Origin: Deltaproteobacteria bacterium
Lineage (GTDB): Bacteria > Myxococcota_A > Polyangia > Polyangiales > Polyangiaceae
Length of the DNA: 64,000 nucleotides
Direction of reading: 5' to 3'
Assembly: GCA_016875405.1 (NCBI GenBank)
Contig: VGRJ01000012.1
Coordinates: 1-64,000 of the forward strand
Shown: piece by piece, positions 37,738 to 55,357 of the stretch
Numbering within the stretch: position 1 is the first letter of the stretch
Layout: every line of letters starts with the position of its first letter
Notes under the pieces: generated by a model
Database searches by the model: none
What the model was told of the DNA's origin: nothing
Seen by the model: only the letters and a program-made list of their open reading frames with translations
Program-made: the position numbers and the translations under genes

Positions 37738-38991
37738 TCACATCTTGCGATCGAGGCTCTTGCCGGTGTCGCGATGCACGAGCTCGGGGACGACCGCCGC
37801 GAGGCTCGCGACGAGGTCGGCCTTGCTCACATCACGCCCTCGTTCGCAGGCGTCCTCCACGAGCTCGAGGAGGGCTCGTAGCTCCGCGGGGACGAGCGCG
37901 GGCGCGGGGACGACGAGCGCGGCCTCGAGCCCACACTCCTCGGCGGACTCGCCTCGCGCGACGAACACCTCCTCTTCTTTTTCGCCCGACGTGTCCGACT
38001 GCGTGACGAGGAGCGGATAGCGCCCGCGTGCGCGATCGCGCGAGACCGCGGCGCGCGCCTCGTCCTCGGTGTCGTAGAAGGCCGGCTCGAGCCCTCGATC
38101 GCGAAGGGTGAGCTCCGCGACGCGGACGAAGTCGGTCTGATCGTGCTCGGGCGCGAGCCTCGGCACGAGCACGCAGCGATCCGGCGCGAGCACGCTAGCG
38201 ACGAGGCAGAGCTGCCCGGCCTCACGCGGCGAGACGAGATAGCGCCGCACGTCCCCGGGCGCCGCGAGCGGCTGCTCCTTGGCGAGTCGCTGCAAGAAGG
38301 CCCAGGGCAGGCTCCCGTCCGAGAACGCGACGTTCGCGAAGCGGGCAGTCGTCGCGCGAAGGAAACCCCCGGCGTCGACATCCCGCGCGCTCGGCGCGCC
38401 ATGAGACCAAAGCAGCAGCTCGAGCGCCCGCTTCGAGGCGCCCATCAGGCTGACCGGGTTCGCCGCTTTGTCCGTCGAGACCGTAAACACGCCACGACGA
38501 CCGTGACCATGCTCGCGGAGCGCGCGGAAGAAGCGCTCGGCACCGAGCAAGTTGACCTCGAGCATGCGGAGCGCCGAGAGCACGTCGCGCTCCGAGCGAA
38601 CGTGCTTCAGGGCCGCGAACGAGAGGACCCAGTCGAACGAGGCTTCGCCGCCGAGAAAGCGGCGAGCGAGCGGAGAGCCGTAATCGAGCGGGGCCACCGC
38701 GAAGTCGCCTCGAAACGCGCGGTCCCTCGAGCGCACGGTGCGAAGCAGCTCTGCGAGGTTGTTTTCGCTTGGATCGAGGACGGCGACCGCGGCCGGCTCG
38801 AAGTCGAGCAGCTCGAGCAAGGTCGCCGAGCCAATCGAGCCTGCGCCGCCCGCGACGAGGATGCGGCTCCCCGCGACCGCGGCGCGGAGCGCCTCCTGGT
38901 GCCGCTCGAGGTCCGCCGCGAAGAGCGAACGCGAGCGCCCCGTCACGGCGGCGGAGATCCGCTCGATCGCGGGCGTAAGGCAGAGGCTCAT
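37738..38991 (-). CDS. SDR nucleotide-sugar 4,6-dehydratase, CapD/PseB/LegB-like
   Basis: A 417-aa enzyme of the polysaccharide biosynthesis SDR group. The start is ATG 38991 (a TTG at 39015 is in frame). NAD-binding GSRILVAGGAGSIGSATL is near residue 55, and the region VLSFAALKHVRSERDV holds the FlaA1/CapD pattern. The active-site stretch VFTVSTDKAANPVSLMGASK has Asp-Lys and a Met where most SDRs have Tyr, as in the membrane-free PseB/CapD dehydratases. The last 130 residues are an extension (Glu/Ala/Leu). It faces the CBS-nucleotidyltransferase gene across 120 bp. In legionaminic or pseudaminic acid pathways such an enzyme makes the 4-keto-6-deoxy sugar; here it is the best candidate for that step. 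Confidence 0.8.
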   Translation of the reverse strand: MSLCLTPAIERISAAVTGRSRSLFAADLERHQEALRAAVAGSRILVAGGAGSIGSATLLELLDFEPAAVAVLDPSENNLAELLRTVRSRDRAFRGDFAVAPLDYGSPLARRFLGGEASFDWVLSFAALKHVRSERDVLSALRMLEVNLLGAERFFRALREHGHGRRGVFTVSTDKAANPVSLMGASKRALELLLWSHGAPSARDVDAGGFLRATTARFANVAFSDGSLPWAFLQRLAKEQPLAAPGDVRRYLVSPREAGQLCLVASVLAPDRCVLVPRLAPEHDQTDFVRVAELTLRDRGLEPAFYDTEDEARAAVSRDRARGRYPLLVTQSDTSGEKEEEVFVARGESAEECGLEAALVVPAPALVPAELRALLELVEDACERGRDVSKADLVASLAAVVPELVHRDTGKSLDRKM

Positions 38992-39111
38992 GGTGAAGGA
39001 GCGCGTCGCGCTCAAACATTCTTCGTACTCGATGTGGCCTGAGTGCTGAAGCTATAGTTGAGCTCCCATGGAGAGGCGGTTGCTCGACAGCCTAGGCGGA
39101 GGCCCTGCGGC

Positions 39112-40167
39112 GTGACGGCTTCGTCGCAGCCCGCTCCGCTGGAGGCGCTCATCGTCTCACCCGAGGCTTCGATTCGCGAGGCGATGCTTACGATCGATCG
39201 CTCGGGGCTCGAGGTCGCGCTCGTCTGCGATGCCCGCCGGCGCCTCGTCGCGATGGCGACGGACGGAGACATCCGGCGCGCGCTCTTGCGGGACGCCACG
39301 CTCGACGACACCATCATGGTCGCGGCGAACTCGAGCTTCACGACCGTCGGCCCCGAGGTTGACCAGAGCGAGGCGATGCGGCTCATGCTGCAGCGGGGCT
39401 ATCACTGCATCCCGGTGCTCGACGCGCAGGGCGCGCTGCTGCACCTCCACACGCTGAAGAGCGCGCTCTTGGGGCACGACACTGGGAGCGTCGCGGTGGT
39501 GATGGCCGGCGGAAAAGGCGAGCGGCTCGGCGCGCTCACCTACGCCATCCCGAAGCCGATGCTCCCGGTCGGGGATCGGCCCATCTTGGAGCGCATCGTC
39601 CAGCTCCTCGTGAGCCACGGCATCCGGCGCGTCTACCTGTCGGTCAACCACATGGCGAGCATGGTCGAAGATCACTTCGGCGACGGCTCGAAGTTCCACT
39701 GTCGGATCGAGTACCTGCGCGAGCGCACCGCGCTCGGGACCGGCGGGGCGCTGCGGCTCCTGCCCGAGGTGCCGACGCACCCGCTCCTCGTGATGAACGG
39801 CGACCTCCTCACCAACGTCAACCTGACGCGGCTCTTCGCGCTCCACCGCGCAGGCAACCATGCCGCGACCGTCGCGCTTCGTCGGCACGTGGTCAAAGTG
39901 CCTTACGGCGTTTGCAAGGTCGACGCCGGCCACGTCATCGCGCTCGAGGAGAAGCCGGAGCTCCACTACGACATCAACGCCGGCATTTACGTGCTCGCGC
40001 CGAGCACCCTCGCGCTTGTCCCGGCCGACGGACCGTTCACGATGACCGGCCTCCTCGAGGCGTGCCTCGCCGAAGGACTAGTCGTCGGCGCGTATCCCAT
40101 GCAGGAATCCTGGCAGGACATTGGTCTCCCCGCGGAGTTCGAGACCGCGCAACGGAGGATGGAGTGA
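39112..40167 (+). CDS. CBS-domain nucleotidyltransferase, PtmE-like
   Basis: A 351-aa protein. The start is GTG 39112 with GGAGG at 39098-39102; the open frame continues upstream. Residues about 10-120 are two CBS units (VSPEASIREAMLTIDRSG, then QSEAMRLMLQRGYHCIPVLD). A nucleotidyltransferase follows: VAVVMAGGKGERLGALTYA with the signature GGKGxRL, IPKPMLPVGDRPILERI, LLVMNGDLLTNVN. The same CBS-NTase layout is seen in PtmE of Campylobacter, a GlcN-1-phosphate guanylyltransferase that starts the GDP-sugar route to legionaminic acid. With nonulosonate genes downstream, this job is plausible here, but the nucleotide (GTP or other) cannot be read from sequence. Its stop overlaps the ribosome-site region of the next gene. 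Confidence 0.82.
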   Translation: MTASSQPAPLEALIVSPEASIREAMLTIDRSGLEVALVCDARRRLVAMATDGDIRRALLRDATLDDTIMVAANSSFTTVGPEVDQSEAMRLMLQRGYHCIPVLDAQGALLHLHTLKSALLGHDTGSVAVVMAGGKGERLGALTYAIPKPMLPVGDRPILERIVQLLVSHGIRRVYLSVNHMASMVEDHFGDGSKFHCRIEYLRERTALGTGGALRLLPEVPTHPLLVMNGDLLTNVNLTRLFALHRAGNHAATVALRRHVVKVPYGVCKVDAGHVIALEEKPELHYDINAGIYVLAPSTLALVPADGPFTMTGLLEACLAEGLVVGAYPMQESWQDIGLPAEFETAQRRME

Positions 40168-41276: not shown

Positions 41277-42632
41277 TTGAAGCTCTCCAGCATTCTCGAA
41301 AGAAACCGCGATCTACGTGGACGGCACGCCGGGCAGCGTGCGTTCGTTGTCGGCAATGGGCCATCGCTCAAGAAGCAGCGGCTCGAGTGGCTCCGACACG
41401 AGATCACCTTCACGGTCAACTCGTTTCATCGCGACCCGATCGCGGTCGACATCGCCTCTCCGTACCACGTGCTCGCAGACCCAGCCTTCTGGCAAGAGCC
41501 CGCGAAGCATCTCTTGCCGGTGCTGCAAAGCCTGCACGATCTGAACCTCCCGAAGACCATCTTTCTCCCCTCCGCGTCGATCCCTGTCGTCGGAAAACTC
41601 GCCGTTGGGCCGGGCATCGACGTCCGCTACTTCCACTACGACCTCGCCGCCGACACTCCTGGCTTGTTGCCCGACCTGGACTTTACCTCGGGCATTCCGC
41701 AGTTCGGCCAAACCGTCACCATCTGCGCGCTTATGTGCGCGCTCTACCTTGGCTGCAATCCGATCTACCTCCTCGGATGCGATCACGATTGGTTCGGATG
41801 GACGGAAGAAAACTACTCGACGGCTGAATTCGACCATAGCTACGAGCGACGTGCCGAGGAGACGAGCAAGCACGCCGATCTCTGGAACTTCGAACAGATG
41901 ACCCGCATCGTGAAGGTGATGCGCTACCAATACTCGCGGCTTCGAGAGTACGCCGAGGCACGCGGCATCGCGGTTCGGAACGCGACGGCGGGCGGGCACC
42001 TCGATGTGTTTCCGCGGGTCGACTTCGGCACGCTGACCCCGAGTGCGCGGGGGAGGATTGCGCCGGACGAGCTCCTCCAGGATGCCTTGCCCGACGCGGC
42101 GCGCCTCGCTCGAGTCGTGGAGACACTGCTCGAATCGGACGAGGCGGCGGCGGCGCTCTTGCTCGCACGCGAGTCGATTCGGCGAACAAGCGGCAAGTTC
42201 GTCGCCTCAGGCAGGTTGATGGAACTCGAGGCGAGAGCCCTTGAGGCGCTGGGGCTCGACCAGCTGGCGCAAGCCCGCCGAAGCGACTCTTTCACGCTTG
42301 CTCAGCCGGCTGATGGCGAGCTCCCTGCCCTCGCCGCTGCGGCTCGAGACCAAATTCGCGCTCTGCTCGTGGCCCGCGGCGAGGCCCTGGCCGACGACGA
42401 TCGGCACGAGCGCGCGCGCGCCCTCTTCCGTGACGCGATCCGACTCGACCCCAAGCACGCCCCTAGCTGGAACAACCTGGGAGTTCTCTACGTCGCGGGC
42501 GATGAACCCCAGCATGCCCGAAGGCTCTTGGAACACGCCGTCGCGCTGGATCCAGCCGACAGCTCTGCGCGGGACAATCTTCGGGCCGTGAACGAGCTGT
42601 TGGTCGGGGGTGACGAGCCTGGTCGAGCATGA
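41277..42632 (+). CDS. DUF115 (MptE/Maf-like) protein with C-terminal TPR
   Basis: A 451-aa protein; the start TTG 41277 lacks a strong ribosome site. Residues about 1-230 match DUF115: GQRAFVVGNGPSLKKQRLEW, DIASPYHVLADPAFW, and FGQTVTICALMCALYLG followed by NPIYLLGCDHDWFGW. The same family includes MptE-like and Maf motility-associated glycosyltransferases that transfer nonulosonates to flagellin. Residues about 350-440 form TPR helices (ARALFRDAIRLDPKHAPSWN, NNLGVLYVAGDEPQHARRLL). It begins the tight operon of the locus. A role as the transferase that uses the made sugar is a reasonable guess, but it is not tested here. Confidence 0.78.
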   Translation: MKLSSILERNRDLRGRHAGQRAFVVGNGPSLKKQRLEWLRHEITFTVNSFHRDPIAVDIASPYHVLADPAFWQEPAKHLLPVLQSLHDLNLPKTIFLPSASIPVVGKLAVGPGIDVRYFHYDLAADTPGLLPDLDFTSGIPQFGQTVTICALMCALYLGCNPIYLLGCDHDWFGWTEENYSTAEFDHSYERRAEETSKHADLWNFEQMTRIVKVMRYQYSRLREYAEARGIAVRNATAGGHLDVFPRVDFGTLTPSARGRIAPDELLQDALPDAARLARVVETLLESDEAAAALLLARESIRRTSGKFVASGRLMELEARALEALGLDQLAQARRSDSFTLAQPADGELPALAAAARDQIRALLVARGEALADDDRHERARALFRDAIRLDPKHAPSWNNLGVLYVAGDEPQHARRLLEHAVALDPADSSARDNLRAVNELLVGGDEPGRA

Positions 42633-44173
42633 TGGCATCGCCTCTCTTCCCCCACGACACGGTCGACGGCTGCATCGAAGTCCACGCCCATCGAGCCCCC
42701 GATGCGGTGGCACTGAGACTCCGCGAGAACGGCCAATGGCGGACGTATCGCCGAGCCGAATGCTTTGACCTGATCGAGCGCTACGCCGCGCTGTTTGCCG
42801 AGCGCTTCGACGCAGGAACCCTGCTCCTCTTCATCAAGCGCCTCGACGGCGACCTCCTCGCCGCGTACCTCGGCGCGATGCGTGCCGGTCTCGTACCCGC
42901 ACAGCTGAGCCCGCCTACGGCGAAGACGAGCGCCGGGGAGTACGCTCGAAAGATTGCGCACGTGCTCGCGATGACCGCCGCGGGAGGTGTCTTCACCGAC
43001 CACGACATGGCGTCGCGGGTCCCGGAGGACGTGACGAAGGTCACCCCGGCCGACGCGCCGGCTCGGAGCCGCGGCGCGAGGCGAGCCCATTCGACGGCGC
43101 TCGTTCAGTTCAGCTCCGGCTCGACGGGGCTCCAGAAGGGCGTCGCGCTGACACACGACGCAATCCTCGCGCACATGCGGAGCTACGCGGATGCGCTTCG
43201 GCTGTCCTCGGATGACCGCCTCGCGACCTGGCTGCCGCTCTACCACGACATGGGCCTCATCGCGTGCTTCCTCATGCCGCTGATGGCGGGGGTCGTCTTC
43301 GACCAGATGGATCCGTTCGACTGGTTGCTTCGCCCCGACCTCCTGCTCGAGACGATCGAGTCGAACCGCAGTACCCTTTGTTTCTTGCCGAATTTCGCGT
43401 TTCACGTGCTCGCCAAGAAGGGAAAGCCGCGAGATCTCGGTTCGATGAGGGCCTTCGTCAATTGTTCGGAGCCCGCTCGCTTCGACACCCACGCGGTGTT
43501 TCGGCAGGCGTTTCCATCCGTCGCCAACGGCTCCCTCACGGTCTGCTACGCGCTGGCTGAGAACACCTTCGCGGTGTCGCAAACACCTCCAGGCGCCGAG
43601 CCACGACGAATCACGGTCGGAGGCAAAGAGCTCCTGTCTTGCGGCTCGATCGTCGCCGAGACCGAATGCCGGATCCTCGAGCCCGATGCCGACGGGATAG
43701 GCGAGATCGGCATCCGCGGAGCCGCGCTCTTCGCCGGTTACCTCGGGGGAGATGCGCCGATGGAGGGCGAGTACTACCGCACGGGTGACCTCGGCTGCAT
43801 CACGCCGGAAGGCGAGCTCTTCGTCACGGGTCGCAAGAAAGATCTTGTGATCTGCAACGGCAAGAACCTCTACCCGCAAGACGTCGAACACGTCGCATCG
43901 CAGGTCGCCGGCGTCTACGCGGGCCGGGTCGTCGCGTTCGGTGTCGACAACGTCGAGGTGGGGAGCGAGGAGCTGATCGTCATCGTCGAGCGCGACGGCT
44001 CCGTTGGGGACGTGCCCCTCAAGCTAGCCGTGCAGCGGGCGGTCGAAGCAGAAGTCGGAGTCCTCCCGCGGCGTGTCGAGGTCGTCGAGCACATGCGCCT
44101 CGTGAAGACGAGCAGCGGCAAAATCAGTCGCTCGCGAAACCGCGAACTCTACTTGGCAGCTCGAGGGGAATGA
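42629..44173 (+). CDS. Fatty-acyl-AMP ligase-like adenylating enzyme
   Basis: A 514-aa adenylate-forming enzyme. The adenylation core shows ALVQFSSGSTGLQKGVAL (P-loop-like A3 motif), ATWLPLYHDMGLIACFLMP as in fatty-acyl-AMP ligases, and EYYRTGDLGCITPEGELFV with the TGD motif, followed by KKDLVICNGKNLYPQDVE. Near the end the catalytic-Lys region reads KTSSGKISRSRNRELYL. There is no carrier domain in this protein; a carrier-like domain is in the very next gene, overlapping by 4 bp (ATGA at 44170-44173). That pairing suggests it activates a fatty or other acid and loads it onto that carrier. Substrate unknown. Confidence 0.88.
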   Translation: MMASPLFPHDTVDGCIEVHAHRAPDAVALRLRENGQWRTYRRAECFDLIERYAALFAERFDAGTLLLFIKRLDGDLLAAYLGAMRAGLVPAQLSPPTAKTSAGEYARKIAHVLAMTAAGGVFTDHDMASRVPEDVTKVTPADAPARSRGARRAHSTALVQFSSGSTGLQKGVALTHDAILAHMRSYADALRLSSDDRLATWLPLYHDMGLIACFLMPLMAGVVFDQMDPFDWLLRPDLLLETIESNRSTLCFLPNFAFHVLAKKGKPRDLGSMRAFVNCSEPARFDTHAVFRQAFPSVANGSLTVCYALAENTFAVSQTPPGAEPRRITVGGKELLSCGSIVAETECRILEPDADGIGEIGIRGAALFAGYLGGDAPMEGEYYRTGDLGCITPEGELFVTGRKKDLVICNGKNLYPQDVEHVASQVAGVYAGRVVAFGVDNVEVGSEELIVIVERDGSVGDVPLKLAVQRAVEAEVGVLPRRVEVVEHMRLVKTSSGKISRSRNRELYLAARGE

Positions 44174-45852
44174 CGATGCAGATCGTCGGCAACAGCCATG
44201 TGTCCGTCTTCTCACGCGGATGCGTCCGTCCCGACGCCCGCGACGAAGTCGTGGAAGTTCATTGGGTAGGCGCCCTCGAGATCGAGCATTTCTTCATCGA
44301 CCACCCCGCCGCGAGAAAGGTCCGATCGGTGTTCCGGGACGAGCCGGGCTGGAAATTCCTGATGGTGGGGAACCACGACACCTTTCAGCTGCTTCGGCGA
44401 GCGACGCGCGACGGACTCGAGGACGCGATGCATCACTACCTCGGTCGCTATCGAGCGGTCTTCGAGGAGTTCGCGAGCCTCGGTCGCTTTGGCTGGCTCG
44501 TCGGCGTGCAGCAAGCCGACAACGTCCACTTCCCAGGGCTGACGTCCGAGGGGATCCTGCGCGTCGCCCGTGAGTTTTCGACCCGGCTCGCGGTTTGGTG
44601 TGGCGAACGTGGCATCCCCGTGATCGATCCACTCCCTGCGATCAGCGGGCCCGACGGGCGCCCCGAGTTACGGTGGTTGCAGGCGGACCGCCTTCACCTG
44701 AAGCCAGACGCCGCAGGGCTCTACTTTGACGCCATCGAAGCGGCGACCGGAGTGCGCCTCGAAGCTCGGCACGCGAAGGGAGAAACTTTCGAGCCGCGCT
44801 CCGAGCACGAGTCTTACTGCTCGCTCGTCCTCGGTGAGCTGGCGCTTCCCCTGCATCGACGCGCCCCCGTCGACCTCGAGCCGCTCGTTCTCACGTTTGC
44901 CAGGGAACGGCTCGTCGAGCGTGGCTTGGAGCTCGAGCTCGGACTTGACGAGGACTTCGTCAGCTCGGGGCTTTTTGATTCACTCGACTTGGTCGAAATT
45001 TACACGTTCGCGACGAGGTCCCTCGACCGAGAGCTCGATTTCGAGATCTCGCTTCGCAACCTCGACACCATCCGAAAGCTTTGTGCGCATCTTCGTGAGC
45101 GGTTCTCCGAACCGGAGAACGTTCCTCTGGTCTTCGATGACTTCGTGACGGCCATGCGCGGTGCCGTCGACGAGGCCGCCACCATCGAGGCGGAGTCCCG
45201 CATTCAATCAATGAGCGCGGATCAGCTTCGACAACTGCGCGAGGCCATCGAAACCTCTGGCGGCGGAGCGAGCTATGGGCTCCCACTCTACTGGATGGCG
45301 CTCGGGCAGTTCGGTCTTGGGGACGCAGCGGAGGCTGCTCGACTCCTAGAAGCCGCGACCGACAAGCGCAGGCCATTCGCCATCTCTCCCATGCGCGCCG
45401 AGGCCGCTCGGCGGAGATGGGCAGCCGCGCTCGAGAGGCCGAGCGCCCTGCCCAACGCACGAGGGATGAACTGGCTCACCGACGACACGGATCCGCTCCT
45501 GCTTCGAGCGTCCATCCGTGCGTACGTCGTCTGCTACCGCCACAGTGACGATGTCGCGCTCCACGTCTTTGCCCGCCACTCGGTGAGCGCGGCGACCGCG
45601 CTTGTGCTCGATGCCGTGACCTCGGTTGGCCTCTCGGCCGAGCCGTTCGCCGACATCTGCGTCCACGACCTCGTGCTCACCACCGCACAGGCTGAACGGG
45701 CGGACTTGCTATTCGGGGCTGGCGAACCCGAGCGCCTCGCGCGTGCGACGCATCGCCCATGGTTTCGGGAGGTCGCCGCGTTCTTTCGCTCGTGCTCTTC
45801 GATGCCGGGAGCCCCGAGCGGCGACACCGCCACTTCGGCACCGCGACCATGA
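44170..45852 (+). CDS. SGNH-like hydrolase/acyltransferase fused to an acyl-carrier domain
   Basis: A 560-aa protein that I read as three parts. Residues about 1-200 look like an SGNH/GDSL fold: IVGNSHVSVFSRG at block I, FLMVGNHDTFQLL, and block V with Asp and His in ADRLHLKPDAAGLYFD. Residues about 240-310 look like an acyl/peptidyl carrier domain with the attachment Ser in SSGLFDSLDLVEIY (Ser271). The rest is helical (APSP/Ala-rich) and unknown. It overlaps the ligase by 4 bp and the aminotransferase by 4 bp. The likely route is ligase, phosphopantetheinylated carrier domain, then transfer of the acyl group to a sugar by the SGNH domain. All of this is inference from motif order. Confidence 0.65.
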   Translation: MTMQIVGNSHVSVFSRGCVRPDARDEVVEVHWVGALEIEHFFIDHPAARKVRSVFRDEPGWKFLMVGNHDTFQLLRRATRDGLEDAMHHYLGRYRAVFEEFASLGRFGWLVGVQQADNVHFPGLTSEGILRVAREFSTRLAVWCGERGIPVIDPLPAISGPDGRPELRWLQADRLHLKPDAAGLYFDAIEAATGVRLEARHAKGETFEPRSEHESYCSLVLGELALPLHRRAPVDLEPLVLTFARERLVERGLELELGLDEDFVSSGLFDSLDLVEIYTFATRSLDRELDFEISLRNLDTIRKLCAHLRERFSEPENVPLVFDDFVTAMRGAVDEAATIEAESRIQSMSADQLRQLREAIETSGGGASYGLPLYWMALGQFGLGDAAEAARLLEAATDKRRPFAISPMRAEAARRRWAAALERPSALPNARGMNWLTDDTDPLLLRASIRAYVVCYRHSDDVALHVFARHSVSAATALVLDAVTSVGLSAEPFADICVHDLVLTTAQAERADLLFGAGEPERLARATHRPWFREVAAFFRSCSSMPGAPSGDTATSAPRP

Positions 45853-47006
45853 CGACTGGGCGCATTCCACTCGCGGAGCCACACCTCACGGGGAACGCGT
45901 CGCGCTACCTCGCGGAGTGCCTACGCACGAACTTTGTCTCCTCGGTCGGGCCGTTCGTGGAACGCTTCGAGAGTGAGTTTGCGGCCAGGCTTGGAGCCAC
46001 GCACGCGATCGCCTGCGCGAGCGGCACGGCGGCGTTGCACGTCGCGCTCCGTCTACTCGACGTCGGGCCGGGGGATGACGTGTTCGTGTCGACGTTCACG
46101 TTCGTCGCCTCGGGGAATCCGATTCTTTACCAGGGCGCAACGCCGGTGCTCGTGGACTCTGACGAGGCGACCTGGAACCTCGACGCGACGCTCGTCCTCG
46201 ACGAGCTTGCGCGCCGACACCGGCTGGGTGCTCGGATGCCGAAGGTGATCGAGGCGGTGCATGTACTCGGTCAGGCCGCGGATCTCGAAGCGCTCGCAGT
46301 CGAGTGCGATCGGCACGGCATCACACTCCTGGAGGACGCGGCGGAAGCGCTAGGCGCGACCTACTCGAATGGTCCGCTCGCGGGTCGAGAGGTCGGGACG
46401 GTAGGACGCCTCGGCTGTTTCTCGTTCAATGGAAACAAGATCGTCACCTCAGGCGGTGGCGGCATGATCGTGACTGATGACCCATCGCTGGCTCGACGCG
46501 CGAAACACCTGACGACGCAGGCGCGCGTGCCTGGACGTGCCTACTTTCACGACGAAGTCGGCTACAACTACCGCCTCACCAACGTCGCGGCGGCGCTGGG
46601 TGTCGCTCAACTCGAGCTCCTCGACGAGTTCCTCGTCGCCAAGAGACGCATTGCCGCGCGGTACGACGCTGGCCTGCTCGGCGTCCCCGGCGTCGCGCCC
46701 TCACCACGACCTCGTTGGAGCAACCCGACCCACTGGCTCTACTCGGTGCTGCTCGACACGGAAGAAGCGCGGGACGCAGCGCTCGATCGACTCCAGCACG
46801 CAGGGATCGAGGCGAGGCCGCTGTGGACGCCCTTGCATCGGATGCCCGCATTCCAGGGTGCTCCTCGCATTGGCACCGGAGCCGTTGCGGAAGTCATCGC
46901 CCAGCGTGGGCTCAGCCTGCCCTCGTCGGTGACGCTGACCGAGAACGACCAGGACCGCGTCCTTGCCACGCTGCGGGAATTTCTGACGACAACGTCAAGT
47001 CGTTGA
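45849..47006 (+). CDS. PLP-dependent sugar aminotransferase, LegC-like (DegT/DnrJ/EryC1)
   Basis: A 385-aa enzyme. It starts MTTGRIPLAEPHLTGN (ATG 45849, overlapping the previous stop by 4 bp). Typical DegT features follow: ACASGTAALHVALRLLDVGP, VFVSTFTFVASGNPILYQGA, LLEDAAEALGATYSNG, and the PLP Lys in FSFNGNKIVTSGGGGM (Lys197). The N-terminal style (LAEPHLTGNASRYL) matches LegC, which aminates the 4-keto-sugar in legionaminic acid synthesis. It should act after the dehydratase. A 97-bp gap to the next gene may hold a weaker secondary start. Confidence 0.9.
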   Translation: MTTGRIPLAEPHLTGNASRYLAECLRTNFVSSVGPFVERFESEFAARLGATHAIACASGTAALHVALRLLDVGPGDDVFVSTFTFVASGNPILYQGATPVLVDSDEATWNLDATLVLDELARRHRLGARMPKVIEAVHVLGQAADLEALAVECDRHGITLLEDAAEALGATYSNGPLAGREVGTVGRLGCFSFNGNKIVTSGGGGMIVTDDPSLARRAKHLTTQARVPGRAYFHDEVGYNYRLTNVAAALGVAQLELLDEFLVAKRRIAARYDAGLLGVPGVAPSPRPRWSNPTHWLYSVLLDTEEARDAALDRLQHAGIEARPLWTPLHRMPAFQGAPRIGTGAVAEVIAQRGLSLPSSVTLTENDQDRVLATLREFLTTTSSR

Positions 47007-47103: not shown

Positions 47104-48540
47104 ATGAGCGCTGCATCCAGGCCAGTCATTGTCGGAGGCGGCATCGCGGGACTCGTCGCGGCGCTTCGACTGGCTCGTTCCGGGGCCTCCGTCGTGTTGC
47201 TTGAGCGCGAGATGGCACTCGGAGGGTTGTTGCGCTCACGCCGGCTTCCAACGGGCCAATACGTCGACCAAGGGACGCACTTTCTGGCCGACACTGGCAT
47301 CGAGGACCTCGATGTTCTGGTTCGGTCGATGCTCCCTGCGAGCGAGCTTCGTCGACTGGCACCGCTCCAGGCTGGCACGTTTGCGTTTGGTCGACTCAAT
47401 GTCAGCTCCGCCTCTCTCGACATTCGCGGGCTCGGCAGGGACCTCGAGGCACAGATCGTCGCCGAAGCCCTTTGCACCGAAGAGAATGGGCAGGAGGCTT
47501 CTGACCTCGCAACCCACGTGATGCAGCTGTTCGGCTCGACCGCGCTCCGCACCGTGTTCGACCCAATCTTCAAAAAGCTCTGCGGCGTCGGTTGCGCCGA
47601 GCTCGCGCCGGATGCCATGCGATTGTTCTCGCTCGCGAGGCTCGTCGCTCTAAACCCAGCCGCGACAAGACGCTTGAAGTCGACCCCTCACGGCGACGCG
47701 CGCTTCAGCTTTCACTCCAACGACGAGGGAAAGAACCCCGCGAGCGCCTACTACCCCACGCATGGCGGGATTGGGCGCTGGACGGAGGCTCTGGCGCGCG
47801 CCGTCCAGGACGAAGGGGTCGAAGTCCGGCTCGGGACATCCGTCCAACGGGTGACGCGGCACCGCGACTCCACCGTGAGTCTCTCGCTCTCGAACGGCGA
47901 CCACCTCGCGAGCGACCTTCTCGTTTGGTCCGTGCCCTCCGGCATGCTTCTTCGGGCGCTCGGCGAGCCGCCCGAGAGCATGCCCCAAGTCCGCGCTTCG
48001 ATCATCGAACACTTCGTATTCGATCGACCGTTCCTCGTCGGAGCTCACTACGTCCACACTTACGGACCGGACGTCGGACCCTTCCGAGTGACCCTCTATC
48101 CCAATTTCACGGACGTACCGTCCGAAGGCTTTGCCTGTACGGTCGAGACTTTCGCGGAAGCGACGGCGTCGGTGCCGCTCGATCAACACGCTGACCAAAG
48201 CCACGCCGACCTCGTCCGAATGGGCCTCGTCGACCCACGCGCGACGCGCCTTTGGAGCGATGCTCCACCCGATCGTGCCGCGTTCCCTGTCTGGACGAAA
48301 AACCATCGCCTTGCGCTCCTGCGGCAGCGAGAACGCGTCGAGCAGTTGTTGCCTGAGTGCATCCTGATAGGGCGCGCGACCGGCAAGGACTTCTTCATGA
48401 CGGACGTCCTGCGAGACACCTGGCGGCGCTGCGATGCCGTCCTGCAACAGCAGAATTCACTCAGGGCGTCAGACCCCTCCCGGGGCGGCCCCCCAAACGA
48501 CCATGCGGTCCTCGATGGGTCCGTGCGCGACGTCGCATGA
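47104..48540 (+). CDS. FAD-dependent amine oxidase/desaturase-like oxidoreductase
   Basis: A 478-aa flavoprotein. The Rossmann motif is VIVGGGIAGLVAALRLARSG with GxGxxG at residues 9-14, followed by LLEREMALGGLLRSRRLPTG. The middle has VFDPIFKKLCGVGC and the substrate-lid region AYYPTHGGIGRWTEAL; near the C-terminus IGRATGKDFFMTDVL contributes the FAD contact. This layout is that of protoporphyrinogen oxidase and UDP-galactopyranose mutase-like relatives; homologues are annotated simply as NAD(P)/FAD-dependent oxidoreductases in O-antigen loci. Its substrate here is unknown. It overlaps wbqC by 4 bp. Confidence 0.8.
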   Translation: MSAASRPVIVGGGIAGLVAALRLARSGASVVLLEREMALGGLLRSRRLPTGQYVDQGTHFLADTGIEDLDVLVRSMLPASELRRLAPLQAGTFAFGRLNVSSASLDIRGLGRDLEAQIVAEALCTEENGQEASDLATHVMQLFGSTALRTVFDPIFKKLCGVGCAELAPDAMRLFSLARLVALNPAATRRLKSTPHGDARFSFHSNDEGKNPASAYYPTHGGIGRWTEALARAVQDEGVEVRLGTSVQRVTRHRDSTVSLSLSNGDHLASDLLVWSVPSGMLLRALGEPPESMPQVRASIIEHFVFDRPFLVGAHYVHTYGPDVGPFRVTLYPNFTDVPSEGFACTVETFAEATASVPLDQHADQSHADLVRMGLVDPRATRLWSDAPPDRAAFPVWTKNHRLALLRQRERVEQLLPECILIGRATGKDFFMTDVLRDTWRRCDAVLQQQNSLRASDPSRGGPPNDHAVLDGSVRDVA

Positions 48541-49262
48541 CCGTGGTCGCGATTCACCAGCCGCAGTACTTACCCTGGCAGCCTTACCTCGCGAAGGCCA
48601 TGGCCTGCGATGTCTTCGTGTACCTCGACACCGTTCAATTCCAAAAGGACGGGGTACAAAACCGCAACATGGTCAAGACTGCGAATGGGCCTCGGTGGCT
48701 TACCGTGCCCGTGCACGCCAGCCTGAAGTACACGATTGCGGAGACGCAGCTTGCCGACGCACGGTGGGTGCGCAAGCACCTTGCCACCATCCGCCAAAGC
48801 TATCGTGGCGCCCCAAGCCTTGACTGGTTTGACGAGGTGCTCGCACCTTGCCTTTCGCTGGCCCATGCGAGCCTGGCAGAGCTTACGATTCGAGTGACGG
48901 ATCACCTGCTCGACCGGCTCGGTGCGCGATGTCGACGCATCCGAGCGTCCGAGCTCTCCGGCGTCGGAACACGCGAGGAGCTGGTCATCGACTTGGCGCG
49001 CAAGGTCGGAGCGACGAGGTATCTTTCCGGCCTTGGCGCAATGAGCTACCAGTCCCCTGCCACATTCGCGCGCGAAGGCATCGCCTTGACCTACATCCGT
49101 CATCGGTCGCGTCCCTATCTGCAGCGGCATGCCTCGCTCGGCTTTGTCGACGAACTCTCGGCCCTCGATCTGCTCTTGAACTTGTCGCAGACGGAGGCGC
49201 GCGCGCACGTCGAAGACGGAACCATCTTCGAGGATACGACGACCAGGGAGCTCGGAACGTGA
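48537..49262 (+). CDS. WbqC-family protein
   Basis: A 241-aa protein starting MTVVAIHQPQYLPWQPYLAK, the hallmark N-terminus of the WbqC family, with VYLDTVQFQKDGVQNRNMVK and KTANGPRWLTVPV following. WbqC-like proteins occur in polysaccharide gene clusters; some are thought to act in transfer of amino acids or other groups to amino sugars, but the activity is poorly established. It overlaps the FAD gene (ATGA) and the PIG-L gene (GTGA), so it belongs to the same operon. In this setting it is a candidate N-acyl or N-aminoacyl transferase. Confidence 0.85.
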   Translation: MTVVAIHQPQYLPWQPYLAKAMACDVFVYLDTVQFQKDGVQNRNMVKTANGPRWLTVPVHASLKYTIAETQLADARWVRKHLATIRQSYRGAPSLDWFDEVLAPCLSLAHASLAELTIRVTDHLLDRLGARCRRIRASELSGVGTREELVIDLARKVGATRYLSGLGAMSYQSPATFAREGIALTYIRHRSRPYLQRHASLGFVDELSALDLLLNLSQTEARAHVEDGTIFEDTTTRELGT

Positions 49263-49945
49263 GGGGAGGAATCCTCGTCGTAGCCCCGCACCCCGACGAC
49301 GAGACGCTGGGCGCTGGTGGGACCCTGCTCGCCGAGGGGCGCCGCGGAACGCCGCTTCACTGGGTCATGGTCACATCGATGACGGCGGACCAGGGCTTTG
49401 CCCCGGATCGGATCGAAGCGCGTCGCGCCGAGATTGACGCGGTTGCCGCCTCCTACGGCTTTGCGAGCGTGCACTCACTCAACCTCCCACCCGCGAGGCT
49501 CGACGTCCTGCCCCGTGCCGACGTGATCGGCGCGCTCGCCCGCGTCGTTGCCGACTGTGAGCCGGAGACCGTTCTTCTTCCGCACGGCTTCGATGCCCAC
49601 TCGGACCACGCGGTGATCTTCGAATGCGGGCTCGCGGCCACCAAGGCGTTTCGATCCCCGTCCGTTCAAAAGGTCCTGACGATGGAAATCCTCTCCGAGA
49701 CGAACTTCGGGCGACCGGGGACCTTCGTTCCGCGACATTACGTCGACGTGAGCGACGTCTTCGAACGAAAGCTCGAGATCATGCGCCTCTATCAAACCGA
49801 ACTCGGACTCCATCCGTTTCCGCGAAGCCTCGAGGCCCTCACTGCGCTCGGCACGTTGCGCGGGAGCGAATGCGGCGTGCACCGGGCGGAATCGTTCGAC
49901 GTGGTGCGCTCGTTCGGCAGGCTCGGAACGCGATTCGACCCATGA
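49259..49945 (+). CDS. PIG-L family zinc-dependent deacetylase
   Basis: A 228-aa enzyme with the metal-binding motif VVAPHPDDETLGAGGTL near the N-terminus (H-x-DD) and the third ligand in GFDAHSDHAVIFECG near residue 115. PIG-L/LmbE enzymes remove N-acetyl groups from amino sugars. The start GTG 49259 overlaps the wbqC stop (GTGA). In a nonulosonate locus it could free an amino group that another enzyme (WbqC, the SGNH-ACP pair or the ATP-grasp enzyme) then decorates. Confidence 0.9.
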   Translation: MRGGILVVAPHPDDETLGAGGTLLAEGRRGTPLHWVMVTSMTADQGFAPDRIEARRAEIDAVAASYGFASVHSLNLPPARLDVLPRADVIGALARVVADCEPETVLLPHGFDAHSDHAVIFECGLAATKAFRSPSVQKVLTMEILSETNFGRPGTFVPRHYVDVSDVFERKLEIMRLYQTELGLHPFPRSLEALTALGTLRGSECGVHRAESFDVVRSFGRLGTRFDP

Positions 49946-51366
49946 CGCCCCTCTTCATCATCCCCGTTCGCGGCGGGTCGAAGGGCATTCCTGGCAAGAA
50001 TCTGAAGACCGTTGCCGGGATCAGCCTCGTTGGGCGCGCCGTGCGGTCTTCGCTGGCGGCCAGCCGCATCCTCGGGCGAGGTCGGGTCGTCGTCGACTCG
50101 GACGACGAGGCACTCCTTGCCGAAGCGCGTCGCTGGGGGGCCGAGACGCCCTTCGTTCGCCCCGCCGCGCTCGCAACCGACGAGGCCTCTTACCTCGACG
50201 GCCTCCGCCATGCTCTCCAGGTCCTCGACCTCCACGAGACCACGACGGCCGTCGCGGTGGTGCAGGCGACATCGCCTCTGACCCCACCACGCCATCTCGC
50301 CGATGCGGTTCTTCGGTACGAGGCCACGGCGAAGCCGGTGGTCAGCGTCGCGGCCAGCAGCCACCCGATCGAGTGGGGAATGCGGGTCGAGTCGGGGAAG
50401 CTTGTGCCAGCACTCGCGACGTTCCGACGTGCACGTCGCCAGGAGTTTCCTGCGGCGTACGAGCTGACCGGCGCGGTGAGCGTCGCGGGCGCGAGCTACC
50501 TCGTGGGAGGCGGGGATTTTTTCGTGCCTGGTGAGACCGAGGCTCTCGAGCTCGAGCCACGTTACGCCATCGACATCGACCACCTCGAGGATCTCGAGTT
50601 CGCCCGTGCCATCGCCACCGCGGAGCCGATTCCCGCCTTTTCACTCGCGGACGAGAACGAGAGTCGTCGGTGCATCGTCATCGCCGACCTCGCGCGGACC
50701 GCTGCTCCACGGAACACGCTGCGCGCGCGAATCGACGCGGCTGCGGACGGGGGCGCGAATGCTGTCGTATTGCCTTCGCTTGCGTCTCCAGCGCTGAAGA
50801 CTCATGTCGTGCACGCGCTCGACCGGGGCCTCTCGACGCTGGTCAGCCCCGAGACGAGCGAGACCGTCTCGCGGCTCGAGGCCGCTGGGGTCGCGGGGTT
50901 GGTGCTGTCGCCCAAGGCGACCGCCAACGACGCGTTGCTCGTCGCCGCCGCAGCGACGAGGATGCCTCTCCTCGTAGGGGCCGATGGCTTGGATCTGCCA
51001 CACCTCGACCGCATCCTCATGCGCTTGCGGGAAGGCGGCTGCGGCGCGATCGCGCTCGTGCAGACCGTCGACCCTCATCAGGCGGGACGCCTCGGTGGTT
51101 CGTTGAGGCCGCTCGGAGCGCTTCGCGAGACGTTTCGCGTGCCCGTAGGATTGAACGATCGCTCCGGCTCGAGCACCGCGCTCCTCGCCGCACTTGGGCT
51201 CGAGTGTGCACTCTGGCAGCGCCCGCTGGTCGCAGACGATTACGACCCGCTCTCGAACGCCGACGTACGACACGCAGCGACGGAGTTTGCGTCGTGCGTC
51301 GCAACGCTGCGCGAGGCAGAGGCTCTTCTCTCGAGCGAGGCACCAGCATCTGGAGCAGACCGTTGA
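49942..51366 (+). CDS. neuA: CMP-nonulosonate cytidylyltransferase (NeuA/LegF-like) fused to a decayed NeuB-like domain
   Basis: A 474-aa protein. Residues 1-228 match NeuA-type cytidylyltransferases: FIIPVRGGSKGIPGKNLKTV, VVVDSDDEALLAEARRWG, AVVQATSPLTPPRHLADAV. Such enzymes activate a nonulosonic acid with CTP and are usually 225-240 aa. Residues about 235-470 form an extra domain with strand-helix spacing like the NeuB TIM barrel (for example LSTLVSPETSETVSRLEAAG, then LLVGADGLDLPHLDRILMR and FRVPVGLNDRSGSSTALLAAL); each stretch corresponds to a NeuB element but the NeuB catalytic residues are absent. The start overlaps the deacetylase stop (ATGA at 49942); the stop overlaps the epimerase TTG. 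Confidence 0.85.
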   Translation: MTPLFIIPVRGGSKGIPGKNLKTVAGISLVGRAVRSSLAASRILGRGRVVVDSDDEALLAEARRWGAETPFVRPAALATDEASYLDGLRHALQVLDLHETTTAVAVVQATSPLTPPRHLADAVLRYEATAKPVVSVAASSHPIEWGMRVESGKLVPALATFRRARRQEFPAAYELTGAVSVAGASYLVGGGDFFVPGETEALELEPRYAIDIDHLEDLEFARAIATAEPIPAFSLADENESRRCIVIADLARTAAPRNTLRARIDAAADGGANAVVLPSLASPALKTHVVHALDRGLSTLVSPETSETVSRLEAAGVAGLVLSPKATANDALLVAAAATRMPLLVGADGLDLPHLDRILMRLREGGCGAIALVQTVDPHQAGRLGGSLRPLGALRETFRVPVGLNDRSGSSTALLAALGLECALWQRPLVADDYDPLSNADVRHAATEFASCVATLREAEALLSSEAPASGADR

Positions 51367-52517
51367 AACGGATCGTATTCATCACCGGCACACGCGCCGA
51401 GTACGATTGTGTCGTACCCGTGCTGCGCGAACTCGAGCGGCAGCCGGGACTGCGTGGCGAAGTGCTGCCATGTGCGGCTCACCTCTCACCGTTCCTTGGC
51501 TACAACGTCCGCCAGATCGAGGCGGATGGATTTCACATCGTAGGGCGAGTCGAGTCGCTCCTCAGCTCTGAGAGCCTCGTCGGGCGCAGCCTGTCGTTTG
51601 CACACCTTGTCCAAGGGCTCACTTACGCGCTCGCGCAGGATCGGCCAGACGTCCTCTTCGTCACAGGCGATCGCGAAGAGGCGCTCGCGGGCGCCCTCGT
51701 TGGCGTCTTTCTCCAGCTTCCGGTGGCTCACCTCTTCGGGGGCGACCGCTGCATCGCATCGGATCCGGACGAGCTCTTTCGGCCGGCCGTGAGCAAGCTC
51801 GCGACAGTTCACCTGACCGCGAGCGAGTCTCATCGGGCGCGACTCATCAGGATGGGAGAGCAGCCTGAGTATGTCTTCACGACGGGAACTCCTGCGCTGG
51901 ATCGACTGCGCGACGACCCGATGAACGACGAGGCCCTCTCGAGCGCGGTGGGAATCGATACCCGACGACCGTTCTTCCTCGTCATCCACCACCCGTCACC
52001 GCAGCTCGACCTAGAGGCGGGTGAGCGAGAGCTCGAGCAGCTCCTTGCCGGGGTCCTGTCGTTCGGTCACCCAGTGCTATGCGGCTATCCAAACTTCGAC
52101 CCGGGCAACGTCGGCATGCGAAGGGTCATCGACGAAGCTCGAACGCAACATCCGAACCTACGCGTTCATCACAACCTTGAGCGGTCCGTCTTCGGAGGCC
52201 TCTACCGTCGCGCGACGGCCATCGTCGGAAACTCCTCGTCGATCGTGATTGAGGCGCCTTTCCTTCGAGTTGCAGGGATTCTCGTCGGTCACCGGCAGGA
52301 TCTGCGAGAGACGTCGTCGAACGTGCTTCGGGTCGAAGGAGACACCGAGGCCGTACGGGACGCCTGCCGCCGTGCGCTCATGGACGACGACTTTCGCGCC
52401 ACGGTGGCGAGCTGCCCAAGCCCCTATGGCGACGGGCACTCGGCTCCCCGCATCGCCGAGATTCTGGGGACGCTCGATCTCGATCGACGTGCCATGCAAA
52501 AGACGATGGCCTACTGA
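51363..52517 (+). CDS. Hydrolysing UDP-/GDP-HexNAc 2-epimerase, NeuC/LegG-like
   Basis: A 384-aa enzyme that removes the nucleotide while inverting C2, giving the free mannosamine-type sugar that NeuB uses. Motifs: IVFITGTRAEYDCVVPVLRE at the N-terminus, DVLFVTGDREEALAGAL, QLPVAHLFGGDRC near residue 120, LVIHHPSP, and GNSSSIVIEAPFLRVAG near 295. GDRxE in place of the HGDT of non-hydrolysing WecB enzymes marks the hydrolysing group. The TTG start at 51363 overlaps the neuA-fusion stop (TTGA), so translation is coupled. It is followed 6 bp on by a second aminotransferase. Confidence 0.93.
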   Translation: MKRIVFITGTRAEYDCVVPVLRELERQPGLRGEVLPCAAHLSPFLGYNVRQIEADGFHIVGRVESLLSSESLVGRSLSFAHLVQGLTYALAQDRPDVLFVTGDREEALAGALVGVFLQLPVAHLFGGDRCIASDPDELFRPAVSKLATVHLTASESHRARLIRMGEQPEYVFTTGTPALDRLRDDPMNDEALSSAVGIDTRRPFFLVIHHPSPQLDLEAGERELEQLLAGVLSFGHPVLCGYPNFDPGNVGMRRVIDEARTQHPNLRVHHNLERSVFGGLYRRATAIVGNSSSIVIEAPFLRVAGILVGHRQDLRETSSNVLRVEGDTEAVRDACRRALMDDDFRATVASCPSPYGDGHSAPRIAEILGTLDLDRRAMQKTMAY

Positions 52518-52523
52518 GGCGTC

Positions 52524-53582
52524 ATGCGGATTCCGCACTCTGCGAGCGACGTCGGCGATGCCGAAGCGAGAGCGATCGCTGAGGCTGTCGCCAGGAACCG
52601 CCTTGGATATGGCGACGCCTCGCTGGCGCTCGAGAGGGCGCTCCTGCAACGGACCTGCCGGTCCTTCGGATACGCGGTGCTCTCAGGGAGCCATGCGCTG
52701 GCCCTCGCGATCGCTGCAGCCGATCTCGCGCCGGGGAGCCTCATCGCACTGCCCGTCCTGACATGCACCAGCGTTCTTCAGTCGGTTCTGAACGCAGGGC
52801 ATGTTCCCGTCCTGGTCGATATTCGTGAGGACGATTTGACGCTCGACGTGGCCTGTGTCCCGTCGAACGTTGCGCTCGTCATCGCACCACACGCGTACGG
52901 CGCACCCGTGGAGGTCGAGGCGCTGGCGAGAAGAGGTCTCCCGTGGATCGAGGATTGCGCGACCTCACCGGCGACGCGCGCCGCGGGGCGTCCGGCGGGG
53001 AGCTTCGGGTCGCTCGCCGTCTTTTCGTTCGGCGCGACGAAGTACATCACGGGCGGAAGTGGTGGGCTCGTGGCCACTGACGACCCCCAGATGGCGGAGC
53101 GTCTACGGGTCGTGCTGGATGAGCGCCCACGAGGCGGAGCCTTTCGACATCCTGCGCGTGGCGCGATGGCCGGACGCTTGGCGAGCTTGAATGCGGCGGT
53201 CGCCCTCTCACAACTGCGCCGCATCGACGAGCTACGAAGACGTCGACACGCGATCGCTCGGCGATACCTCGAAGCGTTCCCGACGCTGGCGCCACGTCCG
53301 TTCGACGACGCCCATGGCTACTACCGCGTGATTCTACGAGTGGATGAGCCGGCGCCAGTCATCGCGGACAACCTTCAGCGACACGGCATCGACGCACGAT
53401 GTTCGGTCAATCCCTGGCTTGATGACCACCTTGGCGAGCCGCACCCCGAGTTCAAGGGCGCGCAATCCTGGAGGGAGCGGCTGTTATCGCTTCCCATTCA
53501 TCCAGCGATGGCGGAGAGCGACGTGGACTTTGTGATCGACGTCGTCTCAGAGTCGGTGGCGGGCGCCTCGCGCTCCCGCTAA
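52524..53582 (+). CDS. Second DegT/DnrJ/EryC1-family sugar aminotransferase
   Basis: A 352-aa PLP enzyme. AVLSGSHALALAIAAADLAP, LIALPVLTCTSVLQSVLNAG and WIEDCATSPATRA are DegT features, and FSFGATKYITGGSGG carries the PLP Lys (Lys173). It is distinct from the LegC-like enzyme upstream. Two aminotransferases in one cluster suggest two amination steps, or one more sugar branch such as an aminated residue carried on the nonulosonate. The 6-bp gap from the epimerase and 13 bp to the methyltransferase gene keep it in the operon. Confidence 0.88.
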   Translation: MRIPHSASDVGDAEARAIAEAVARNRLGYGDASLALERALLQRTCRSFGYAVLSGSHALALAIAAADLAPGSLIALPVLTCTSVLQSVLNAGHVPVLVDIREDDLTLDVACVPSNVALVIAPHAYGAPVEVEALARRGLPWIEDCATSPATRAAGRPAGSFGSLAVFSFGATKYITGGSGGLVATDDPQMAERLRVVLDERPRGGAFRHPARGAMAGRLASLNAAVALSQLRRIDELRRRRHAIARRYLEAFPTLAPRPFDDAHGYYRVILRVDEPAPVIADNLQRHGIDARCSVNPWLDDHLGEPHPEFKGAQSWRERLLSLPIHPAMAESDVDFVIDVVSESVAGASRSR

Positions 53583-53595
53583 GGTCGCGCGAGCC

Positions 53596-54258
53596 ATGGC
53601 GACGTCCAAGGAAACCGAGGCGCTGGCCGAGCTGCGCGAGCACTGGGACCAGATGGCGCGGACACTCGCTTCCGACAGGGAGCGCGTCGACGCGAGTCCG
53701 CGCGCCCAGCGCATGCGATTCGCGGCGTTCGCGACGCAGGAGCTGGGGTCGGCACTCGAGGGGACCTCGATTCTCGACGTTGGATGCGGCGTGGGCGACC
53801 TTTGGGGCTACCTCGAGGAGCTCGGGGTACACTGCGACTATCTGGGGGTCGATGTCTCGAGCGCGATGGTCGAGCGAGCACGCGCGAAGTTCCCAAAGGC
53901 TCGCTTCGAGGTCGCGGACATCCTCGGCTGGGGCAGAGAGCAGAGCTTCGACTACGTCGTGGCGTTCGGGATTCACAACGTTCGGGTCGCCGGCGCCGAA
54001 CCGATGCTCGAGGCGACGACGCGCCGTCAGTTCGCCCTCTGTCGACGAGCGGCGCACGTGAGCTTGCTGACGGACAGGTTCGGCGGATTCGGTCCGCACG
54101 CCCTCGCCTGGCGGGCCGAGGAGGTCCTCGGGATGGCCCTCCTCGTCACGCCGAACGTAACGCTGCGCCACGACTACCTCCCGAACGACTTCAGCGTGAC
54201 CCTGTATCGGGAGCCGCTCATCGACCGACGCCGCGACCTGCTTGGAGACTTGCCCTGA
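53596..54258 (+). CDS. Class I SAM-dependent methyltransferase
   Basis: A 220-aa enzyme. The SAM-binding motif I is ILDVGCGVGDLWGYLEELG near residue 60, and motif II has YLGVDVSSAMVERARAKFP. The C-terminal half is strand-rich (FDYVVAFGIHNVRVAG) without a substrate domain I can identify. Position in the operon suggests it methylates a sugar hydroxyl or amine in the product, but no evidence selects the target. Homologues are widespread in surface polysaccharide clusters. Confidence 0.85.
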   Translation: MATSKETEALAELREHWDQMARTLASDRERVDASPRAQRMRFAAFATQELGSALEGTSILDVGCGVGDLWGYLEELGVHCDYLGVDVSSAMVERARAKFPKARFEVADILGWGREQSFDYVVAFGIHNVRVAGAEPMLEATTRRQFALCRRAAHVSLLTDRFGGFGPHALAWRAEEVLGMALLVTPNVTLRHDYLPNDFSVTLYREPLIDRRRDLLGDLP

Positions 54259-54373
54259 AGGTCGCGAAGGACGAAAGCGCGGAGCGCGCCCTGGCTTCGA
54301 TCCTCCCGCGCGCGTCGGTCGGATGCGGTACGCTAATGGCCCGATGGGCCGGCGAGAAGTCGATCAAATCGGC

Positions 54374-55357
54374 ATGAAAGCAGGGGATGAGGGCGCGCCT
54401 CGGGGCGTGGCGGTCCGTGGCTCGAAGGAGCTCAACGTGCTGTTCCTTGGCGGAGGAAAGAGAGTGTCCGTCGCCGAGCACCTCATGGCACGAGGCCAGC
54501 TCGCTGGCACTCGGGTGAACGTCTTTGCGTACGAGCTCGACGATGCCGTCCCGATCCGCGAGATCGCGACGGTTCTGCCGGGAAAAAGGTGGAGTGAATG
54601 TCTCGTGCATCTCCAGGGACTTATCGAGGAGCTCGCGATCGAGCTGGTGCTTCCGTTCGTCGACCCGGCCATCGGCGTCGCTGCCGCCCTGCAGAGTGTC
54701 AACCCTCGTCTCTTTTCGCCCGTGTCGAGTGCAGCAGCGTGCGAGACGTTCTTTAGCAAGGTGGCGACGCAGCGATGGTGTCTCAGGCATGGCGTCCCGG
54801 TGCCCGCGAGTGAAGCAGGACGCTTCCCAAAGATCGCCAAGCCTGACCGAGGCTCGGCGAGCAAAGGAATCGTGATCCTAAGACATGAAGCCGAGCTCGC
54901 AAGCTACACTGAGGATCCAACGTATCTTGTCCAGCAATTCGTCCAGGCGAAGGAATACACCGTCGACGCCTACCGAAGTGTCCGGCACGGCAACATCAAC
55001 TATCTCGTGCCGCGCCAGCGGCTCGAGACGCAAGGAGGCGAAGTCATCAAGTCTCGGACGATTCGCCACGGCACGATCGAGTCGCTCAGCCGCTTCATCC
55101 TCGAGGAGGCCGATCTACGCGGTGCGGTCACTCTTCAGTTTCTCGAAGAGGAGAACACCGGAGGCATCTTCTTCATGGAGGCGAACCCGAGGTTCGGAGG
55201 CGGCGTCGTCACGTCGGTCGGCGCAGGTGTCGACTTGTTCGAGGTCCTCACGGCAGACTCTTCCGGAACTCACCTCGAGGAGAACGACCGCTGGGAGGTC
55301 GGCCTGCTCATGCTGCGGCGCTTCAGCGAGATCTATATCCATGCAGATCATCATTGA
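54374..55357 (+). CDS. ATP-grasp domain carboxylate-amine ligase
   Basis: A 327-aa protein. The start is taken as ATG 54374; ATG 54344 in the same frame is also possible, and neither has a good ribosome site. The N-terminal Rossmann-like part begins KELNVLFLGGGKRVSVAEHL. ATP-grasp motifs follow: PKIAKPDRGSASKGIVIL, TYLVQQFVQAKEYTVDAY, and the metal-binding stretch GGIFFMEANPRFGGGVVTS. It resembles the CarB-like group used to join amino acids or other carboxylates to amines. In this locus it may attach an amino acid to an amino sugar. Its 3' end overlaps the HAD gene by 17 bp. Confidence 0.85.
   Translation: MKAGDEGAPRGVAVRGSKELNVLFLGGGKRVSVAEHLMARGQLAGTRVNVFAYELDDAVPIREIATVLPGKRWSECLVHLQGLIEELAIELVLPFVDPAIGVAAALQSVNPRLFSPVSSAAACETFFSKVATQRWCLRHGVPVPASEAGRFPKIAKPDRGSASKGIVILRHEAELASYTEDPTYLVQQFVQAKEYTVDAYRSVRHGNINYLVPRQRLETQGGEVIKSRTIRHGTIESLSRFILEEADLRGAVTLQFLEEENTGGIFFMEANPRFGGGVVTSVGAGVDLFEVLTADSSGTHLEENDRWEVGLLMLRRFSEIYIHADHH

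Follow-up and report, generated by a model that had tools for sequence, protein, structure and literature searches.

A candidate cytosolic acyl-carrier relay encoded in a legionaminate-type nonulosonate operon of a Polyangiaceae bacterium

Introduction

In the textbook legionaminate pathway, the amine made by LegC is acetylated by LegH (PMC6137143). The LegH of Plesiomonas is a NeuD-family protein, and legH mutants of this organism lack flagella, indicating that acetylation by LegH is of consequence in a pathway that has been studied (PMC4481668). How, then, might an amino sugar be acylated by a legionaminate-type operon in which no LegH-type acetyltransferase is evident, and in which genes for a predicted acyl-AMP ligase and for a protein with SGNH-like and carrier-like parts lie directly upstream of the gene for LegC? 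This question is raised by a stretch of 64,000 nucleotides (hereafter the window; contig VGRJ01000012.1, positions 1 to 64,000 of the forward strand) from a Deltaproteobacteria bacterium of the family Polyangiaceae (assembly GCA_016875405.1), whose genome of 5.0 Mb is 99% complete and is distributed over 218 contigs. A first-pass annotation, made from the nucleotide sequence by itself, had proposed that the two proteins form a relay that delivers an unusual acyl group to the amino sugar. Our answer, held at slightly less than even confidence, is that the pair constitutes a cytosolic acyl-carrier relay that serves the legionaminate-type pathway by acylating the nonulosonate or one of its precursors.

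Results

The locus encodes a set of LegB-, PtmE-, LegC-, LegG-, LegI- and LegF-like proteins, and by these family assignments it is a nonulosonate operon of the legionaminate type. The LegB-like sugar-nucleotide dehydratase (37738..39015; Pfam Polysacc_synt_2, 3.7e-28) lies on the reverse strand and shares 74-75% identity with LegC-adjoining genes in G160 and G159, two genomes of the same genus. The PtmE-like gene, the other core genes, the chain of four described below and the further genes of the operon from 47104 to 55670 lie on the forward strand. The PtmE-like protein, which carries CBS and nucleotidyltransferase domains (39058..40167, start codon approximate; Pfam NTP_transferase 2.4e-33 plus CBS), is 69-72% identical to its relatives. 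Among the remaining core enzymes, the NeuC/LegG hydrolysing 2-epimerase (51363..52517; TIGR03568, 313 bits, cut-off 236) and the NeuB/LegI nonulosonate synthase (55667..56683; TIGR03569, 437.5 bits, cut-off 400) exceed their NCBIfam cut-offs. The LegC-type aminotransferase, annotated as LegC-like from the outset (45849..47006; TIGR04181, 4e-119), falls slightly below (397.7 bits, cut-off 420), and the PseF/LegF-type CMP-transferase, which is fused to a NeuB-like barrel (49942..51366; TIGR03584 1.5e-29, NeuB 4.1e-6), falls well below. This fusion is kept in two sister species (L101 2286-3734 and L102 8049-9521), and the operon encodes a separate full NeuB besides the fused barrel.

Further genes of the operon encode an FAD-dependent amine-oxidase-type protein (47104..48540; Pfam 1.8e-17), a WbqC-family protein (48537..49262; 1.9e-56), a PIG-L family deacetylase (49259..49945; 4.5e-20), a second DegT-type aminotransferase (52524..53582; 4.9e-51), a methyltransferase (53596..54258; 2.7e-14), an ATP-grasp protein (54323..55357; 3e-13) and a small HAD-type phosphatase-like protein (55341..55670; weak HAD-superfamily matches). 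The ATP-grasp protein, whose closest PDB entry is 2PN1, might introduce an amide into the sugar. An FGE-sulfatase-type (formylglycine-enzyme-like) gene confirmed by Pfam is also present in the locus (40242-41171), and a gene judged by eye to be of the same type occurs in the nonulosonate locus of G160 (L120 2795-4057).

The genes of greatest interest form a chain of four, joined by exact 4-base ATGA overlaps at 42629/42632, 44170/44173 and 45849/45852. The first (41277..42632) encodes an MptE/Maf-like protein with TPR repeats (Pfam MptE-like 4.6e-10, TPR), a putative glycosyltransferase whose substrate would be the nonulosonate. It is followed by the ligase (42629..44173), the SGNH-carrier fusion protein (44170..45852) and LegC. 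The reading frames of the reported genes show a coding-type GC pattern, and the coordinates, frames and overlaps first assigned to the ligase, SGNH-carrier and LegC genes are exact.

The lack of a LegH-type acetyltransferase, initially noted for the window, extends to the entire genome, in which no NeuD/LegH-type protein (TIGR03570) and no PseH-type enzyme scores over its cut-off. We use the term 'legionaminate-type' and go no further because NeuD/LegH is missing at this threshold. NeuD does exceed the cut-off in three related genomes (G147, G148 and G159), each time within a nonulosonate locus. The locus in G159 is especially informative, as it occupies the same chromosomal site, flanked by the same two genes (DEAD-helicase and FHA), and resembles the window in its LegB (75% identity), PtmE (72%), LegC (68%) and CMP-transferase fusion (39%). 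It also carries LegG, LegI and NeuD, and there the FAAL-like ligase and SGNH-carrier genes are absent. This arrangement, judged from gene content and sequence identity, fits a replacement of the acetyltransferase by the pair and is the best evidence for it. However, G160, whose nonulosonate locus is split over contigs, has neither NeuD nor the pair, so the absence of NeuD need not imply replacement by the pair. Contrary to the notion that NeuD is the usual neighbour of LegC-like genes, it lies no more than 1.5 kb away in 6 of 30 cases, and therefore close adjacency provides no argument; the case rests on the comparison of loci and genomes.

The 514-residue ligase had been described as a fatty-acyl-AMP ligase (FAAL) without a carrier domain, and this description holds with one adjustment to the name. 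The protein matches Pfam AMP-binding (2e-43), and no carrier domain was found in it by Pfam scan. Its best NCBIfam match is the 'fatty acyl-AMP ligase' model PRK09192 (232 bits, under the cut-off of 600), and its closest PDB chain is the E. coli FAAL 3PBK (4e-42). By these best matches the ligase is nearer to FAALs than to CoA ligases. With 3PBK and FadD32 it has in common the sequence family, the WLPLYHDMG region and a C-terminal SSGK motif, and it differs from this family in the FAAL-specific insertion region. Alignment with ten relatives gives this region 62 residues in the window ligase and 58 in the ortholog from genome G115, against 78-86 in the other nine, such that neither FAAL found with an SGNH-carrier partner has a full-length insertion. 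Loss of the insertion alone confers only weak CoA activity, as the main rejection of CoA is due to the canonical pocket (PMC8460268). Given the shortened insertion and this precedent, we call the enzyme 'FAAL-like' and treat a preference for the carrier over CoA as putative.

The 560-residue fusion protein is more difficult to classify by profile search, which on the window protein alone yields a weak Pfam Lipase_GDSL_2 match (E 0.089) and no PP-binding match. Its ortholog in the same-family genome G115, which is 33% identical, matches Lipase_GDSL_2 at 2.4e-5 and PP-binding (PF00550) at E 0.0023 (18.6 bits, just under the cut-off of 20.8). The SGNH-like part is also apparent from structure prediction. 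An AlphaFold model of residues 1-217, built from three sequences (pLDDT 82, pTM 0.83), has an SGNH fold, and a Foldseek search with this model returned 29 matches at E<=0.001, mostly GDSL acylhydrolases or esterases (best 7e-6). VIA-align superimposes the model on SGNH hydrolases with Z values of 13-15 over about 170 residues (171-174 at Z values of about 15) at an rmsd of about 3 A. Thus, residues 1-200 (44170..44769) are predicted to adopt an SGNH fold. The catalytic residues Ser9 (44194-44196), Asp173 (44686-44688) and His176 (44695-44697) are invariant between the two orthologs. Block III reads GNHD in the window protein and GTHD in the ortholog instead of the usual GxND, with His replacing Asn, and we therefore claim SGNH membership for the fold and the triad only.

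The structural matches to this domain bear on what it might do. They include TesA, an SGNH thioesterase of E. coli (Z 13), which would be in line with a domain that works as a thioesterase or in editing or deacylation, freeing or trimming acyl groups rather than transferring them. We regard this as very unlikely, given that coupling a loading enzyme to its own unloading enzyme would probably be futile without another acceptor, and a separate transferase partner does not appear to be encoded. Two O-acetyltransferases, PatB and OatA, are also among the matches, as are sialate O-acetylesterases, and together with the usual chemistry of SGNH transferases, which are known to form esters, they make O-acylation of the nonulosonate or glycan the main rival to the reading that we prefer. 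The amine would then be acylated by a different enzyme, for example the WbqC-family or ATP-grasp protein or a GNAT encoded elsewhere, and the operon indeed holds several further candidate acylating or ligating genes. However, these structural matches act outside the cytoplasm whereas in the fusion protein neither an export signal nor an anchor is evident, the pair directly precedes LegC, and similar structure is no proof of function. On balance we consider O-acylation unlikely.

The carrier-like site proposed at Ser271 (codon 44980-44982) has withstood closer inspection. A profile made from the two orthologs, searched against 379 genomes of the phylum, retrieves small stand-alone carrier proteins over residues 234-320, including this serine, and three of these are Pfam-confirmed PP-binding proteins. 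The G..DS phosphopantetheine site is invariant in an alignment of 10 proteins, and Ser271 is conserved. Judged by profile and alignment, the region (residues 233-314; 44866..45111) is an acyl carrier-type (PP-binding) domain. The genome also encodes a member of the phosphopantetheinyl transferase family. Sequence searches of the PDB with the SGNH and carrier parts returned nothing meaningful.

Structure prediction had been suggested for the protein as two domains. With two input sequences the full-length protein was modelled poorly (pLDDT 43), and the model of the SGNH domain was used instead. The C-terminal region past residue 320 (45130..45849) is helical in the poor model and has faint TPR similarity (TPR_4, E 0.071); the G115 ortholog lacks the final ~140 residues. 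Profile matches over this region seem to be due to chance or to repeats.

It had also been suggested that other genomes be searched for the pair next to neuB. Among 318 genomes of the class, the SGNH-carrier protein occurs in one other, G115, where a FAAL gene lies directly upstream and overlaps it, and where the pair is flanked by unrelated genes outside any sugar locus. A plasmid search did not find the protein, and a contig scan of the genomes revealed no further case beyond the G115 contig. The rarity of the pair and the location of its sole other copy away from sugar genes would suit an acyl-activation module that serves something else (a lipid, a secondary metabolite or a protein) and resides in the operon by chance. 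We judge this to be quite improbable, since three consecutive ATGA overlaps tie the pair to the putative glycosyltransferase and to LegC, and since a second LegC-like gene, in G170, likewise adjoins FAAL and carrier genes. That gene run (G170:C165, L058 3424-9679) comprises an SGNH protein, an MBOAT, a FAAL, a carrier, the LegC-like aminotransferase and a PglD-type acetyltransferase. Another SGNH-like copy in G115 (G115:C138, L070 810-1430), in which GDQH replaces the catalytic Ser motif, adjoins genes for an SpsF-type nucleotidyltransferase and a radical SAM protein, and it probably represents a pseudoenzyme belonging to a different sugar-related locus.

Among the nearest FAALs that have no SGNH-carrier partner, several are encoded in sets together with a small carrier, an MBOAT and an SGNH protein. 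A complete Dlt-like set of this kind (carrier, FAAL, MBOAT, SGNH) is present in the same genome as the window (G000:C80, L015 4059-8574). The genes between 37738 and 56683 that were scanned with Pfam include no MBOAT, and neither a strong membrane segment nor an evident export signal or anchor was found in the SGNH-carrier protein, every stretch of which is less hydrophobic by hydropathy than the region near the N-terminus of the SGNH protein belonging to that Dlt-like set. Given that both the MBOAT and the membrane anchor are missing, the pair looks cytosolic.

Discussion

According to the cytosolic relay that we favour, the FAAL-like ligase would adenylate a carboxylic acid and load the activated acyl group, in trans, onto the phosphopantetheine of Ser271 in its partner protein. 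The fused SGNH domain, with its Ser9-Asp173-His176 triad, would act as a transferase, unloading the carrier and passing the acyl group to the sugar. The acceptor would most likely be the NDP-sugar that LegC produces, acylated on its 4-amino group in the step that LegH/NeuD performs with acetyl-CoA; alternatively, it would be a hydroxyl, either on this sugar or on the finished nonulosonate.

Several lines of evidence support this relay. A ligase, an SGNH fold and a carrier are encoded in a chain of four overlapping genes, and the catalytic residues are kept in the ortholog. The Leg-like set is present in a genome with no NeuD over cut-off, in contrast to the NeuD-bearing loci of G159, G147 and G148, the first of which occupies the same chromosomal site. 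The lack of a PseH-type enzyme and the presence of a phosphopantetheinyl transferase family member are also consistent with the proposal, as is the placement of the catalytic serine at residue 9 of a protein with no strong membrane segment, unlike the anchored Dlt-like SGNH partner. Other observations argue against it. The G115 pair lies outside sugar genes, G160 has neither NeuD nor the pair, LegC is slightly under its family cut-off, and acylation of the amine could be due to an unlinked GNAT, to the WbqC-family protein or to the ATP-grasp protein. Furthermore, the known transferases of the SGNH type form esters rather than amides. Delivery to the amino sugar, as first proposed, is partly supported: the parts and the G159 locus fit it, and G115 and G160 speak against it.

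A bolder version of the relay would have the carrier-bound acyl group replace acetyl-CoA-dependent LegH altogether, with the carrier-fused SGNH domain serving as a cytosolic sugar N-acyltransferase that generates a nonulosonate whose acyl group is other than acetyl and may be long or hydroxylated. We consider this version doubtful. If true, however, carrier-bound acids rather than acetyl-CoA could diversify sialic-acid-like sugars, an SGNH enzyme would draw acyl groups from its own fused carrier in the cytosol, and bacterial surface sugars could be expected to show a wider range of chemistry. An SGNH-carrier fusion encoded behind an acyl-AMP ligase offers a simple genomic marker.

Comparison with known systems

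Relative to the legionaminate pathway LegB-LegC-LegH-LegG-LegI-LegF of C. jejuni, Plesiomonas and Halorubrum (PMC6137143, PMC4481668), the window operon has a counterpart for every step but LegH, and adds the FAAL-like ligase and the SGNH-carrier protein. In the literature covered by a partial search, we found no description of such a fusion and ligase in a LegH-less legionaminate-type operon, and no paper linking legionaminate with an acyl carrier and an AMP ligase.

The 'new twist' initially seen in this locus is nonetheless narrower than proposed, because an acyl ligase and carrier beside pseudaminate genes have already been described. Available excerpts on the flagellar glycosylation islands of Aeromonas group II and of enterobacteria list an acyl carrier protein, a 3-oxoacyl-ACP reductase, an AMP-dependent synthetase or CoA ligase, LuxE and LuxC; in Aeromonas, the ligase and carrier genes adjoin pseudaminate genes, and a lipid-like sugar part is suggested (PMC7874193, PMC4875605). 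As far as these excerpts extend, the islands resemble the window operon in placing an acyl-activating ligase and a carrier within glycosylation genes, and differ in having a separate small carrier, LuxC/LuxE and pseudaminate rather than legionaminate-type genes, with no SGNH-carrier fusion mentioned.

Dlt-like FAAL/carrier/MBOAT/SGNH sets, which follow the DltABCD logic and include G000:C80, contain a FAAL that is homologous to the window ligase (44% identity over residues 57-508). The window pair departs from them in having no MBOAT, an SGNH domain fused to the carrier, no membrane anchor and a shortened insertion region. Common to both is that a FAAL, a carrier and an SGNH-family protein are encoded together, and the Dlt-like context of the nearest FAALs suggests that the pair may be such a set, shrunk to two genes and relocated to the cytosol.
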